A DNA stretch of 36,677 nt from a virus, in IMG/VR virus record IMGVR_UViG_3300019730_000003, positions 1 through 36,677 of that record. One strand, 5' to 3'. Position 1 is the first letter of the stretch; the number at the start of each line of letters is the position of its first letter. The notes below the pieces were generated by a model. It searched no databases, had not been told where the DNA came from, and worked only from the letters and a program-made list of their open reading frames with translations. Shown piece after piece: positions 27,424 to 36,677 of this stretch. The position numbers and the translations under genes were made by a program.

Positions 27424-27786
27424 TTAATCGACTAGTTTTTGGATTTCTATCCATGATTCAGATAGCTTTTTATCTTCTGCAATAAGTTCCTTAATTTCCT
27501 TATCACACTCTGCTATTGTTTTGAGAATCTTCATCTTTTTATCAGGGTCTTTTTCAGCGTTGAATTTCCTTGCTGCTTCATCATACCTTTTTGCTGCTGT
27601 TGATCTATTCCATTTTCCAATCATTTCATGTTGCTTCTTGATGTTCTCTTCTGATTTTATACTGTAAAGAAAGAACTTCACATCACTTAAATCTGGCTGA
27701 TTAAAGTAATGATTCGATTTAAGATAGTCAATTATCTGCTGTTTGTTAAGCATCTTTAAATGATCCCAGCTTTTCTCTTCGCTCAT
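27424..27786 (-). CDS. Hypothetical helical protein downstream of the tRNA-like RNA
   Basis: 120 residues from the ATG at 27786 (MSEEKSWDHLKMLNKQQIID), with GAGGAGAT directly upstream. The frame stays open to 27885, but that extension crosses the structured RNA and lacks a ribosome site. The N-terminal half has an SAP-like helix pattern (KMLNKQQIIDYLKSN); the C-terminal half is coiled coil (FNAEKDPDKKMKILKTIAECDKEIKELIAEDKK). Function unknown. Its ribosome site begins 8-15 bases after the encoded CCA of the tRNA-like element, so its expression could depend on that structure. Confidence 0.75.
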   Translation of the reverse strand: MSEEKSWDHLKMLNKQQIIDYLKSNHYFNQPDLSDVKFFLYSIKSEENIKKQHEMIGKWNRSTAAKRYDEAARKFNAEKDPDKKMKILKTIAECDKEIKELIAEDKKLSESWIEIQKLVD

Positions 27787-27809
27787 ATCTCCTCTATTGG
27801 TTATGTTGT

Positions 27810-27924
27810 TGGTGGAGCGGCCACTGGTTCGCACAGTGTGTGACCATTCGGAATTTAACCGCCGTGGATGATCGGTCCACGCCAACCTTGATTTAAATAC
27901 ACAAGGTCTTCAGGCACCGCTCCA
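27810..27924 (-). ncRNA. tRNA-like structured RNA with encoded CCA end
   Basis: 114 nt from GGAGCGG (27923-27917) to CCA (27812-27810). The two ends pair over 7 bp (GGAGCGG with CCGCTCC), plus a G-U pair, followed by discriminator A and CCA. Inside are: an extended arm in the D position (GCC/GGC and ACCTTG/CAAGGT, loop 11); a 5-6 bp arm with a 7-base loop CCGATCA in the anticodon position (GAU); a short CGG/CCG arm; and a T-arm CACTG-TGCGAAC-CAGTG. Deviations from a normal tRNA are length, C instead of U33, and G at T-loop position 55. An alternative pairing (TGGT-CACA with TGTG-ACCA) excludes the T-arm. It could be a degenerate tRNA, an acceptor mimic or a leader switch. Confidence 0.5.
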
Positions 27925-27939
27925 TTTTGTTATGCTGTT

Positions 27940-27960
27940 TTAGTGTTTAGCCCCGTATGG
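27940..27960. repeat. 21-base direct repeat, copy A
   Basis: Matches 28130-28150 with one mismatch (…CCCCGTaTGG against …CCCCGTgTGG). On the minus strand it ends 16 bases before the tRNA-like RNA begins. A degenerate third copy (about 11 of 13 bases of the TAGTGTTTAGCCC part) lies at 28005-28017. Confidence 0.8.
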
Positions 27961-28028
27961 CGTAATACTATAGGTTGATTGTTATCCATCTATGGTTTCT
28001 GTTGTACTGTTTAGCGCTGATGAAATTA

Positions 28029-28070
28029 GAAAAGAAGTTCCTATTATTTAGGAGGTAAACTTCTCTTTTC
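28029..28070. other. Long hairpin in the non-coding region
   Basis: GAAAAGAAGTT (28029-28039) pairs with AACTTCTCTTTTC (28058-28070) with a 2-base bulge, and an inner CCTA/TAGG pair closes a small loop. It lies between the two 21-base repeats. There is no U-tract on either side, so it is not a typical terminator. Confidence 0.6.
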
Positions 28071-28129
28071 GTGTGAAACAAAGAATACTTGATAATGTCT
28101 TCAGAAACGTTTTCCATGTTTATCTACAG

Positions 28130-28150
28130 TTAGTGTTTAGCCCCGTGTGG
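28130..28150. repeat. 21-base direct repeat, copy B
   Basis: Partner of 27940-27960, 190 bases apart. On the minus strand it lies 11 bases after the stop of the 113-residue gene (28162) and 12 bases before the ATG of the uncalled 49-codon frame. The two copies bracket the hairpin. Confidence 0.8.
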
Positions 28151-28161
28151 GACTGAACAAG

Positions 28162-28503
28162 TTAAATATAAATGCTTTCGCCAGTTTGTTGATATCCATC
28201 TGTGTCAAAATTTGGTAGCTCTGCATTTCTTGCAATTACAATGCTTTCGTTGATTTTAATCACAATGTGAAAGCTGTTATCGATGAGTTTCACGTCTGCA
28301 TCGACTGCCTGCGTATCTGTTTTAAAAATAATGCCGCTGAAATCTTCGCCGTTCCAGGTGATCTTGATAGACTCTGTGTAGTCAATTGGCCCATCGTTTG
28401 ACATCCAACCATCAACATCAAGGTGCAAAGTGCCAATTGTGATCAAACCATAAATGTCTTTTTCGATGCCGCCAATTTCTAATTTATGTCCTGTGATTTT
28501 CAT
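28162..28503 (-). CDS. Hypothetical beta-rich protein, 113 residues
   Basis: MKITGHKLEIGGIEKDIYGL… consists mostly of predicted strands (GTLHLDVDGWMSN, SFHIVIKINESIVIARNAEL). Soluble, acidic, no family recognised. It is the first gene after promoter candidate P2, with GGAGATAAGACG before the ATG, so it is likely well expressed. Confidence 0.7.
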   Translation of the reverse strand: MKITGHKLEIGGIEKDIYGLITIGTLHLDVDGWMSNDGPIDYTESIKITWNGEDFSGIIFKTDTQAVDADVKLIDNSFHIVIKINESIVIARNAELPNFDTDGYQQTGESIYI

Positions 28504-31134: not shown

Positions 31135-32340
31135 TTATCCTTTTAATTTTCCTGTTGCTTTAAGTGCTTTAAATTTTTTGTATGCCTCGCTTTTTGGTTG
31201 TGTCTGCCCTAGCCCCTTGCACCAATAATCGTTTCTTAGTAAGCACCTCCCCATCCTTCGCCATGATGGAACCCAACACTTCGACTCTAGTTCGTGTGGT
31301 GCTTGGTCTGGTATTTCTCCAGGATACCCGCGCTGTTTCCATCCCCACAAAAACTTTTTAAACCTATGCCTATAATGTTCTTGTGTCTTTTTTGGCAACG
31401 ACTGAAGAAGTAGGTTTGTAAACGACTTCCAGGTGTGCCCATCTGGCAAGGTTACTTTTCTGTTTCCTGATATATTCCCGCTTTCACGAATATATAGAGC
31501 CCCAGAATTAGCCCCATTTACCCTTGCTATCAACTTAAACCATGTATCAGGTTCAATAATATGGTAAAGCCATAACCCTTGTTTTTGGTCATCGCCATAC
31601 GGTTGGCATAGTCTTTGTTGGCTAAGTTTGACTCCTGCCATTTGCATTTTATCATAAATTTTATTGTAAGGCTTATCTTGGTATTTACCGTGGTATCTCC
31701 AAATATCCTCAGTTCTCCAATCATAGATAGGGTAAATATTGTATACCTGATCAATCACCTTTGTTGACCACCTCCGATTGTTGAACATAAGTCCTTTTTT
31801 CTGCCATGTCGCTATTGCACAATAGCGATGCAATGACTCATCGGCGCGGATTCCGATAAATGCAGCACACGGTTCTCCTTTTGCATACCATTGCCCGAAT
31901 AAAACCATGATCTCTTCAAATTCCATTTTTGGAACATAGAAGTCGTACTGAGATAGGTCACTCGCTCTATCTGGTTTTTCACGTACCCAAATATCTTTAG
32001 CTTCTTCATCCCATGCACACCACTGCGGTTCAAAATTAGTTAATGCGTTTCTCAGTTTTATCTCTCCGCAAAACCAGTGCAAATCGATATTGTCTTTGTA
32101 CATGTCGAACATTAATTCGGAATGGTCAATTGTTTCCTTGTATTGGGCTTCAAGATCAAAAAGAACAACTCCTACAGTTCTGTTTCTTTTTATTGCCTCA
32201 TCCATAATCAAATGGAACATCACAGTTGAATCCTTCCCGCCAGAGTATGATAGGTATATCTTTTTAAAATGGTCAAACGTTTCAGATATTCTATCCCTAG
32301 CAGCCTGTAAAACGCTTGTTTCGTTGTATTGTTTAATCAT
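31135..32340 (-). CDS. PAPS-reductase-family protein (IbrA-like, DUF3440 type)
   Basis: 401 residues. The PP-loop SGGKDS at residues 33-38 marks the adenine-nucleotide alpha-hydrolase fold of PAPS reductases and related sulfur or ATP-pyrophosphatase enzymes. Further family features are 'VVLFDLEAQYKETIDH', 'AAFIGIRADESLHRYCA', 'NIYPIYDWRTEDIWRY', and the C-terminal segment with CWVPSWRRMGRCLLRNDYWCKGLG, which is typical of IbrA/DUF3440 proteins and not of assimilatory reductases. The ATG lies 1 base after the ParB-like gene stop (TAA-T-ATG) without its own ribosome site, so the two are translationally coupled. The pair may modify DNA or a nucleotide; the reaction is unknown. Confidence 0.85.
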   Translation of the reverse strand: MIKQYNETSVLQAARDRISETFDHFKKIYLSYSGGKDSTVMFHLIMDEAIKRNRTVGVVLFDLEAQYKETIDHSELMFDMYKDNIDLHWFCGEIKLRNALTNFEPQWCAWDEEAKDIWVREKPDRASDLSQYDFYVPKMEFEEIMVLFGQWYAKGEPCAAFIGIRADESLHRYCAIATWQKKGLMFNNRRWSTKVIDQVYNIYPIYDWRTEDIWRYHGKYQDKPYNKIYDKMQMAGVKLSQQRLCQPYGDDQKQGLWLYHIIEPDTWFKLIARVNGANSGALYIRESGNISGNRKVTLPDGHTWKSFTNLLLQSLPKKTQEHYRHRFKKFLWGWKQRGYPGEIPDQAPHELESKCWVPSWRRMGRCLLRNDYWCKGLGQTQPKSEAYKKFKALKATGKLKG

Positions 32341-32341
32341 A

Positions 32342-33496
32342 TTAATAAATGGTTGACTGTCTTCCTGGGTTAGCCTGTTCCATCGTTACAGGTTCACGAC
32401 CATTGCGCTCAAGCCACATGTTTAAATACTCAAGCGCTGCGTTGTCGGCTTCTTTTTGCTGATCTTCAGTTAAAAGGTTGTACCCACCGCAAAAAACAGA
32501 AGGTATCCCGCTGTCATAGCACATAGCAGACTGTCCCATCCAAGCAATTCTATTCATAGCTTGGTTGCTTAAATAATGCTCGCATGAGTGTTTCCACTCA
32601 GAAATAACACTTCCCATAGCTGACTTAAACCGTGGTATGTCAGCCAAGAAATCAGCGTATAACTGAATACATTCATCTTTTGTTTTCCCTGGAAAAGTAT
32701 TCGCGTAAAATCCTGCTTTTTGGCACTCCCATTGCTCCCACTTGTGAAATATTCTTGTTTCGTCGCTCGTGTTAACTGTCCTTGATTGCTCTGATTCGTC
32801 AAAATCTGTGAACTCATCCAAAGGAACAAAATCAGGCTGTTCAGCGTTCTCAATATCCCAAGATCTTGAGAATTCTTCATCAGAAAAAACATCGGCAAGA
32901 CCTGTGATCTGGCAAAGTCTCAAGATTTCGTCTTCTTCCATTCCAAGCTCTTTTGCAATCCTTGAGTTTTTCCAATTGCGGTTTTTTAGTTCTAGTATGA
33001 TATCAGACATGGAGTCAACAGTATGCTTACCCCTTGCCCTGTTATGCCTGATAGTCGAAGCAATCCTGTTGTTCCTGCCTTGCCGGTCATCCTTAATCAA
33101 AACAATAGGGAGATACCCTTTGATTCTTTTTTGAACAGCTTCATTCTCTTTACCTACCCTATTCCTGTGGAAACCGTCGATAACTTCCTTCTTTTCGTCA
33201 ACCTGCCATGTCACAATTGGCTGAGTATACCCGTCTTCCATGATTGAATGAGCCAATAGTTTCATTTCTGGAGGTGCTACTTTGTTTGGATTGTAGTCGT
33301 TCGCTTTGATGTTGTCTTGCTTCTCCCAAATGACACAATCAACCGGCTCATCCTTAAAAGGCCCGTTTTGGTGCAGCTCATGCTTAATGTAATTTGTTGA
33401 TTCGATCTTTTCTTCCTCTGGCATACCATCAAGTAATTCTATTAAATCACTGACTTTTTCCCTCAAAGCCATATAATTAATGTATTCCGTATCCAT
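32342..33496 (-). CDS. ParB-like nuclease domain protein fused to C-terminal domain (IbrB-like)
   Basis: 384 residues from the ATG at 33496, with GGAGATTAAA directly before it. Residues about 55-160 form the ParB/sulfiredoxin-type domain (KANDYNPNKV, LLAHSIMEDGYTQPIV, DGFHRNRVGK at 107-116, IRHNRARGKH at 149-158), followed by an HTH-like segment (NWKNSRIAKELGMEEDEILRLCQ). Residues about 245-370 form a separate alpha-helical domain (HKWEQWECQKAGFYANTFPGKTKDE…WKHSCEHYLSNQAMNRIAWMGQSAMC…LNMWLERNG) that I have seen as a recurrent phage domain with IbrA/IbrB-type genes. It pairs with the PAPS-reductase-like gene downstream. Confidence 0.8.
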   Translation of the reverse strand: MDTEYINYMALREKVSDLIELLDGMPEEEKIESTNYIKHELHQNGPFKDEPVDCVIWEKQDNIKANDYNPNKVAPPEMKLLAHSIMEDGYTQPIVTWQVDEKKEVIDGFHRNRVGKENEAVQKRIKGYLPIVLIKDDRQGRNNRIASTIRHNRARGKHTVDSMSDIILELKNRNWKNSRIAKELGMEEDEILRLCQITGLADVFSDEEFSRSWDIENAEQPDFVPLDEFTDFDESEQSRTVNTSDETRIFHKWEQWECQKAGFYANTFPGKTKDECIQLYADFLADIPRFKSAMGSVISEWKHSCEHYLSNQAMNRIAWMGQSAMCYDSGIPSVFCGGYNLLTEDQQKEADNAALEYLNMWLERNGREPVTMEQANPGRQSTIY

Positions 33497-33519
33497 TTTA
33501 ATCTCCAAATTATGATTAA

Positions 33520-34813: not shown

Positions 34814-34824
34814 TTTTCTTTTCC

Positions 34825-34959
34825 TTATTTATCCTTCTGTTTCTTCTCTTCCCGGGGAATATCCCACTTGGGGTTTTTGCAATAAGGGCAAGCTCTAGGC
34901 TTTCCTTCAATCCTTGGCTTCCATGTGTATCCACATCTTAAACATTCTAGCTCTTTCAA
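34825..34959 (-). CDS. Small zinc-ribbon protein with TTG start, 44 residues
   Basis: Read directly: [20 protein letters not shown]… with CLRCG and [14 protein letters not shown], the common phage/archaeal 'CxxCGxxWxPR…CPxCxSxxWdxPr' zinc ribbon. The start is TTG at 34959 with a perfect AAAGGAGG about 5 bases upstream. No ATG in this frame gives the first Cys pair. It is the first gene after promoter P3, 11 bases before the HNH gene. Confidence 0.8.
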
Positions 34960-34985
34960 AATTCCTCCTTTGTTTGTTTACTTTT

Positions 34986-35014
34986 ATGATAATCATTAAA
35001 AAACACCCCGTCAA
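34986..35014 (-). promoter_or_regulatory. Promoter P3 (TTGACG, 17 bp, TATCAT)
   Basis: -35 TTGACG at 35014-35009, a 17-bp spacer and -10 TATCAT at 34991-34986, five of six matches in each box, in the 64-base gap 34960-35023. It points at the zinc-ribbon/HNH/initiator operon. It is the best sigma70-type promoter I see in the genome. Confidence 0.7.
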
Positions 35015-35023
35015 GCAATAATT

Positions 35024-36564: not shown

Positions 36565-36677
36565 TTAGCCGATAGACACCGACACGTTTTGATAAAACCA
36601 AATAGCTATTTCGGCCGCTTTCCATAAGCCTAGTGGTATGAAAATACAGCATAGCACAAAAAGTATTTTAAACCCTG
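36565..36677 (-). CDS. Small membrane protein, C-terminal part (continuation from position 1)
   Basis: This is the 3' part of the 47-residue gene that starts at 107. The overlap with the left end is the 76-base repeat; the new sequence is 36565-36601, which encodes the tail of the protein (…AIWFYQNVSVSIG) and the stop TAA. The next gene downstream starts at 36543, 21 bases after this stop. Confidence 0.7.
   Translation of the reverse strand, partial: GFKILFVLCCIFIPLGLWKAAEIAIWFYQNVSVSIG
36602..36677. repeat. Right copy of 76-bp exact terminal repeat
   Basis: Exact copy of bases 1-76. Dropping one copy gives a 36,601-bp circle in which the minus-strand reading frame starting at 107 continues to a stop at 36565. 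Confidence 0.95.

Follow-up and report, generated by a model that had tools for sequence, protein, structure and literature searches.

A tRNA-like element with an encoded CCA end before a ribosome site in a compact phage genome: a candidate processed tRNA mimic

Genomic setting and repeats

The viral record IMGVR_UViG_3300019730_000003 comprises 36,677 bases, and this whole record is referred to here as the window. The assembly is probably a complete genome, because its two ends (positions 1-76 and 36602-36677) share an identical 76-base direct terminal repeat. The genome encodes a lambda-type portal, a gpA terminase, and a Mu gpT-like capsid protein, and its minus strand carries the recognised genes and the tRNA-like element alike. 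No tRNA gene was found in the genome, and no integrase was recognised among the genes scanned.

The genome is compact, and the element fits on the coding strand within an intergenic gap of 181 nt (Table 1). Following the 3' end of the element there are 15 nt and then the GAGGAG site of the gene at 27786, in keeping with the original prediction, which had placed the element directly before that site. An extension of this gene to TTG 27885 was considered and rejected, as that start has no Shine-Dalgarno (SD) sequence and the added residues are atypical, while ATG 27786 has a good ribosome site; it is unlikely that the tRNA-like stretch is coding. The 49-codon ORF further upstream lacks the ribosome site that is present at most neighbouring genes, and consequently there may be no coding sequence anywhere in the 375 nt between 28161 and 27787, a stretch with a fold z-score of -2.05. 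Neither a convincing promoter nor a terminator was found at the locus. Other long gene-free gaps, in the gene set used, are located at 2571-2873 (303 nt) and 34814-35023 (210 nt).

Table 1. Features of the tRNA-like locus, in window coordinates
Feature	Position	Strand	Basis or remark
GAGGAG ribosome site of gene at 27786	27789..27794	-	sequence
Downstream gene, 120-aa orphan protein (start ATG 27786)	27424..27786	-	no family, no homologue found
Upstream gene, 113-aa orphan protein	28162..28503	-	orphan by searches
49-codon ORF	27968..28117	-	no SD; coding status doubtful
114-nt tRNA-like RNA, GGAGCGG...CCGCUCC-ACCA	27810..27923	-	sequence, fold, chance tests
Acceptor stem, 5' strand GGAGCGG (pairs with 27814-27820)	27917..27923	-	pairing probability at least 0.99
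Acceptor stem, 3' strand CCGCUCC	27814..27820	-	sequence, ensemble pairing
Discriminator A and encoded CCA (RCCA motif)	27810..27813	-	A111 and CCA 112-114 in sequence
D arm: GCC/GGC stem, UGAA bulge, 7-bp extension GACCUUG/CAAGGUU, 11-nt loop	27881..27915	-	fold
Anticodon-type arm GUGGA CCGAUCA UCCAC	27864..27880	-	C33, GAU at 34-36, C37; probability 0.86-0.95
25-nt variable region, short V arm with two competing weak pairings	27839..27863	-	ensemble
T arm CACUG UGCGAAC CAGUG	27822..27838	-	probability about 0.55
21-nt direct repeat, proximal copy CCATACGGGGCTAAACACTAA	27940..27960	-	sequence
21-nt direct repeat, distal copy CCACACGGGGCTAAACACTAA	28130..28150	-	lies in hairpin, z -3.2
Upstream part of duplicated unit, proximal (CATAGATGGATAACAATCAAC)	27974..27994	-	similarity tests
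Upstream part of duplicated unit, distal (CACAGATGGATATCAACAAAC)	28184..28204	-	similarity tests
Third copy of core motif GCTAAACANTA	28005..28015	-	exact match

The region had also been described as holding 21-base repeats and a long hairpin. The repeats are present as two copies, 190 nt apart and identical at 20 of 21 positions, and the hairpin at the distal copy is significant. The long hairpin, near 28020-28067, was dropped since it is not significant (z -1.5); it lies in the 49-codon ORF. The 21-nt repeats are part of a longer degenerate duplication, in which 28204-28079 aligns with 27994-27896 at a score of 66, a value that 300 shuffles approach to at most 43. The stretch before the 21-mer is similar between the copies (1 of 1000 shuffles is as good), while the stretch after it is marginal, with 3 or 20 of 1000 shuffles as good, depending on window size. 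In one copy the marginal stretch would reach 27 nt into the 5' end of the tRNA-like RNA, in the other it would take in the start of the 49-codon ORF, and by this similarity the two may share ancestry. If they do, the tRNA form arose in place and not from a captured tRNA. Furthermore, the motif GCTAAACANTA has exactly three copies in the genome (27941-27951, 28005-28015, 28131-28141), all of them in this region and on the coding strand, suggesting a candidate binding site or promoter element.

Two other ideas about the repeat were set aside. A resemblance to a piece of 23S rRNA was considered; an exact 17-mer genome scan gave two matches, neither ribosomal-looking. The repeat was also considered as antisense to the terminase of another phage, as the identical 21-mer (CCATACGGGGCTAAACACTAA) occurs in viral contig L004 (8407-8427), antisense within a terminase-like gene, and the position at which the two copies in the window differ would be synonymous in that gene. 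This single match was judged to be probably a coincidence.

Predicted fold and departure from chance

In the numbering used here, RNA position p corresponds to window position 27924-p on the minus strand, and the strand reads GGAGCGGUGCC...CCGCUCCACCA from 27923 to 27810. The predicted fold is a multi-arm junction that includes every inner arm read from the sequence originally, at the D, anticodon (loop CCGATCA), variable, and T positions. The ends had been described as pairing over 7-8 bp and finishing in ACCA, and the acceptor stem indeed joins RNA positions 1-7 to 104-110 by seven of seven Watson-Crick pairs, with U8.G103 as a possible eighth pair, followed by A-CCA. The D stem (9-11/41-43) carries a second, inserted helix of 7 bp, giving an arm of 35 nt, and the anticodon-type arm has a 5-bp stem and a 7-nt loop. 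The T arm (5 bp) retains T54, C56, A58, and the closing pair G53-C61, as noticed before, with G55 in place of U55. The stated misfits to a working tRNA, C33 and G55, were likewise found, and neither the D bulge nor the D loop contains a GG that could serve as G18-G19. The acceptor and T stems make a stack of 13 bp, or of 12 bp with a one-base offset, whereas the usual stack is a continuous 12.

The computed ensemble gives probabilities of at least 0.99 for the acceptor, 0.91-1.00 for the D extension, and about 0.6 for the D stem. The T arm has a probability of about 0.55, its rival being a hairpin of the GGUCAC/GUGCGAACC region; the alternative pairing that had been said to exclude the T arm is thus real, and it makes up much of the ensemble that lacks this arm. 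The minimum free energy of the 114-nt element is -42.9 (z -2.6), and only 1 of 3850 windows of 114 nt, taken from both strands, folds as stably.

The two near-equal pairings of the T-arm region, and the position of the element directly before the SD, would suit a cis-acting leader: the gene at 27786 would be controlled, in translation or in mRNA decay, by the fold or by switching between T arm and hairpin. However, the SD is not sequestered by any part of the element in the minimum-energy fold. In the computed ensemble the SD is mostly unpaired, two of its G residues taking part in local pairs, and no terminator was found at the locus. The leader switch, one of three readings offered in the original prediction, is thus quite unlikely.

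The departure of the element from chance was assessed with a descriptor comprising a 7-bp acceptor (at most one G-U), NCCA, a 5-bp T arm with T54/C56/A58/G53-C61, and an anticodon-type arm with a 5-bp stem and a 7-nt loop. In the window it matches this one element, against 0.00019 matches expected per genome from 5215 dinucleotide shuffles of the genome. A second null, made by shuffling the 181-nt gap itself, allows for its high G+C: among 1,421,281 such shuffles, the acceptor, T arm, and NCCA occurred together in 180, with the anticodon-type arm as well in 10, and with the T-loop letters added in none. Across 173 other loci (2.1 Mb, nearly all phage) the descriptor matched only canonical tRNAs, all of which ARAGORN also called. 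The descriptor was composed post hoc, after the element had been seen, so these figures overstate significance; chance remains a poor explanation even so. The tRNA-like element is real and lies far beyond chance; this departure, like its sequence, predicted fold, coding strand, and intergenic position, is shown. A reading in which spacer or pseudogene DNA folds this way by accident, its true content being a repeat or operator array, draws on the confinement of the three GCTAAACANTA copies to this gap and on the degenerate duplication that extends into it, but both shuffle-based estimates, with the post hoc descriptor allowed for, make this very improbable.

Comparison with tRNAs and other RNAs

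Neither ARAGORN nor Rfam, with Rfam E-values up to 10, gave a tRNA, tRNA-Sec, tmRNA, or other credible call. The curated cut-off of the tRNA family (RF00005) was not reached, the tRNA-Sec covariance model (RF01852) had no match, and ARAGORN at default settings found 0 tmRNA genes. The element nevertheless has the layout of a tRNA, with a 7-bp acceptor, 5-bp anticodon and T stems, 7-nt loops, and NCCA, and with T stem and acceptor offset by one base. Measured against the tRNA consensus at anticodon- and T-loop positions 33, 37, and 55, the letters C33, C37, and G55, together with the lack of a recognisable G18G19, argue against decoding.

These lost consensus letters (U33, R37, U55) could reflect a tRNA gene that the phage acquired and that is now functionless. 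The long, class II-like variable region and the failure of every tRNA model to recognise the element would fit such a history, and related phages hold stray tRNA pieces (see below). However, stem pairs and loop letters of a dead tRNA gene are expected to erode at about the same rate. Here the acceptor, D, anticodon, and T arms retain all 20 of their pairs as intact Watson-Crick pairs, yet of eight consensus positions in the anticodon and T loops, three (33, 37, 55) have changed. The 7-bp helix inserted in the D arm is clean as well. Decay is disfavoured because the stems are intact while loop letters have changed, an argument weakened by the fact that the arms were recognised by their pairing. 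Degenerate tRNA, the second of the earlier readings, is therefore unlikely.

It is very improbable that the element is a functional irregular tRNA, charged and used like allo-tRNAs or tRNA-Sec. A possible 8-bp acceptor and a long variable region are seen in both of these groups (PMC7609411), but C33, G55, the absence of G18G19, the 35-nt D arm, and the lack of any Rfam tRNA or tRNA-Sec match point the other way. In allo-tRNAs the acceptor branch has 12 bp arranged as 8/4 or 9/3 (PMC7609411), whereas the element is 8/5, or 7/5 with an offset. Irregular allo-tRNA-like sequences (Mukai et al. 2017; reviewed in PMC7609411) resemble the element, by description and not by sequence, in their extended acceptor, long variable arm, and extra helices. 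Some of them are unusable in translation or uncharged, and the review does not describe them as phage elements (PMC7609411). Bacterial tRNA-Sec has an acceptor/T stack of 8+5 bp, which is possible in the element, and long D and variable arms are common to both; in contrast, the element has an anticodon-like GAU and a three-pair D stem with an inserted helix.

It had been stated that no phage element of this form is described, which is nearly right, as relatives in kind exist. In kind, though not in sequence, the element appears most like the stable RNAs C and D of phage T4 (species 1 and 2; rnaC, rnaD), the roles of which are still unknown (PMC3014915, PMC9697503). These are phage-encoded RNAs of 139 and 119 nt that, like the element, neither ARAGORN nor Rfam calls as tRNA. 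Like the element, T4 rnaC combines a T arm of tRNA type with arms that are oversized, and an A directly after rnaD gives ...CACCA, comparable to the ACCA end here. However, RNAs C and D sit in a tRNA cluster while the element stands alone before a protein gene, its cloverleaf is much more regular, and no sequence match to them was found in 50,697 phage records. The second relative is the C4 antisense RNA of phages P1 and P7, a non-coding RNA processed by RNase P from a longer transcript (PMC11143913). Processing by RNase P is demonstrated for C4 and is proposed for the element, which, in contrast to C4 and other non-tRNA substrates of RNase P, has no Rfam match or identified antisense target. 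These likenesses do not establish membership in the T4 RNA C/D or allo-tRNA classes.

Searches for homologues of the element found none via the neighbour proteins, terminase, or capsid protein, none by RNA patterns, and none among the matches listed in alignment-guided scans. In phages, plasmids, and E. coli, blastn returned nothing in phages or E. coli and one insignificant plasmid match. A single-sequence covariance model, which cannot reach distant relatives, found no homologue in 64 loci and 50 records. A search with the capsid protein reached phages whose own capsid proteins are 50-58% identical to it, and none of the 50 records gathered as terminase and capsid relatives holds the tRNA-like RNA or the 120-aa neighbour. 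The missing homologue is not proof of absence, since the covariance model misses distant relatives and the alignment-guided scans cover the matches listed only.

Three related phage contigs (L181, L183, L184) carry tRNA 3' halves with canonical T loops near position 1501, followed in L181 and L183 by a terminator-like hairpin; these halves are likely attachment sites. By analogy with these attP-like fragments, the element could be a DNA-level feature, namely a site of phage attachment that overlaps the 3' end of a tRNA. This is hardly credible, as the T loop (UGCGAAC) is non-canonical, a complete 5' acceptor strand is present, the position is mid-operon with no terminator found, and no integrase was recognised in the genes scanned.

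Proposed processing and possible roles

The tRNA mimic, the third of the earlier readings, is best supported. It is tentatively proposed that a tRNA-mimicking non-coding RNA, with RNase P substrate features, is encoded in the gap that precedes the gene at 27786 and is released from the operon transcript. The features in sequence and predicted fold are the acceptor/T-arm stack and the 3' RCCA. First, the element would be co-transcribed with the leftward operon, and the stack and R-CCA end would be recognised by host tRNA-maturation enzymes. Next, RNase P would cut before G1 (27923), and host 3' nucleases would trim back to the CCA (27810); we infer both steps because RNase P-type features occur on the coding strand, within what appears to be an operon. 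The outcome would be an RNA of about 114 nt and a new mRNA 5' end just before the ribosome site of the downstream gene. The released RNA would either be stable and bind tRNA-handling host factors, or the element would serve for processing only.

We infer transcription, cleavage, and function from several observations: the cloverleaf with its encoded ACCA is far beyond chance, all pairs of the four arms are Watson-Crick, and the element fits the gap before GAGGAG on the coding strand. The precedent of oversized stable phage RNAs beside tRNAs (T4 rnaC, rnaD) supports a mimic as well. Against it stand, above all, the lack of a homologue in the searches above, and further the T arm at about 0.55, the stack of 13 or offset 12 bp, the missing U55, U33, and G18G19, the lack of a convincing promoter and of a terminator, and the possible 5' ancestry with the neighbouring ORF, by which the fold would not be tRNA-derived.

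A more specific version, that the phage makes a CCA-ended tRNA mimic, kept for its structure rather than for decoding, that binds or occupies a host tRNA-handling factor, is doubtful. The factor may be a synthetase, the CCA enzyme, EF-Tu, RNase P, or a tRNA-cleaving defence nuclease. The genome is 36.6 kb long and has no recognised tRNA gene, and a tRNA mimic in it that is independent of the T4 RNAs and much more regular would offer a simpler setting for asking what RNAs of the T4 C/D type do. The element was missed entirely by standard annotation (ARAGORN, Rfam), and such RNAs could go unnoticed in phage genomes.

Elsewhere in the window, at 31135-33508, a PAPS-reductase-like gene (DUF3440, IbrA-like) adjoins a ParB-like gene; the PAPS-reductase-like one has a 63% identical counterpart in Microcystis phage Mwe-JY13.
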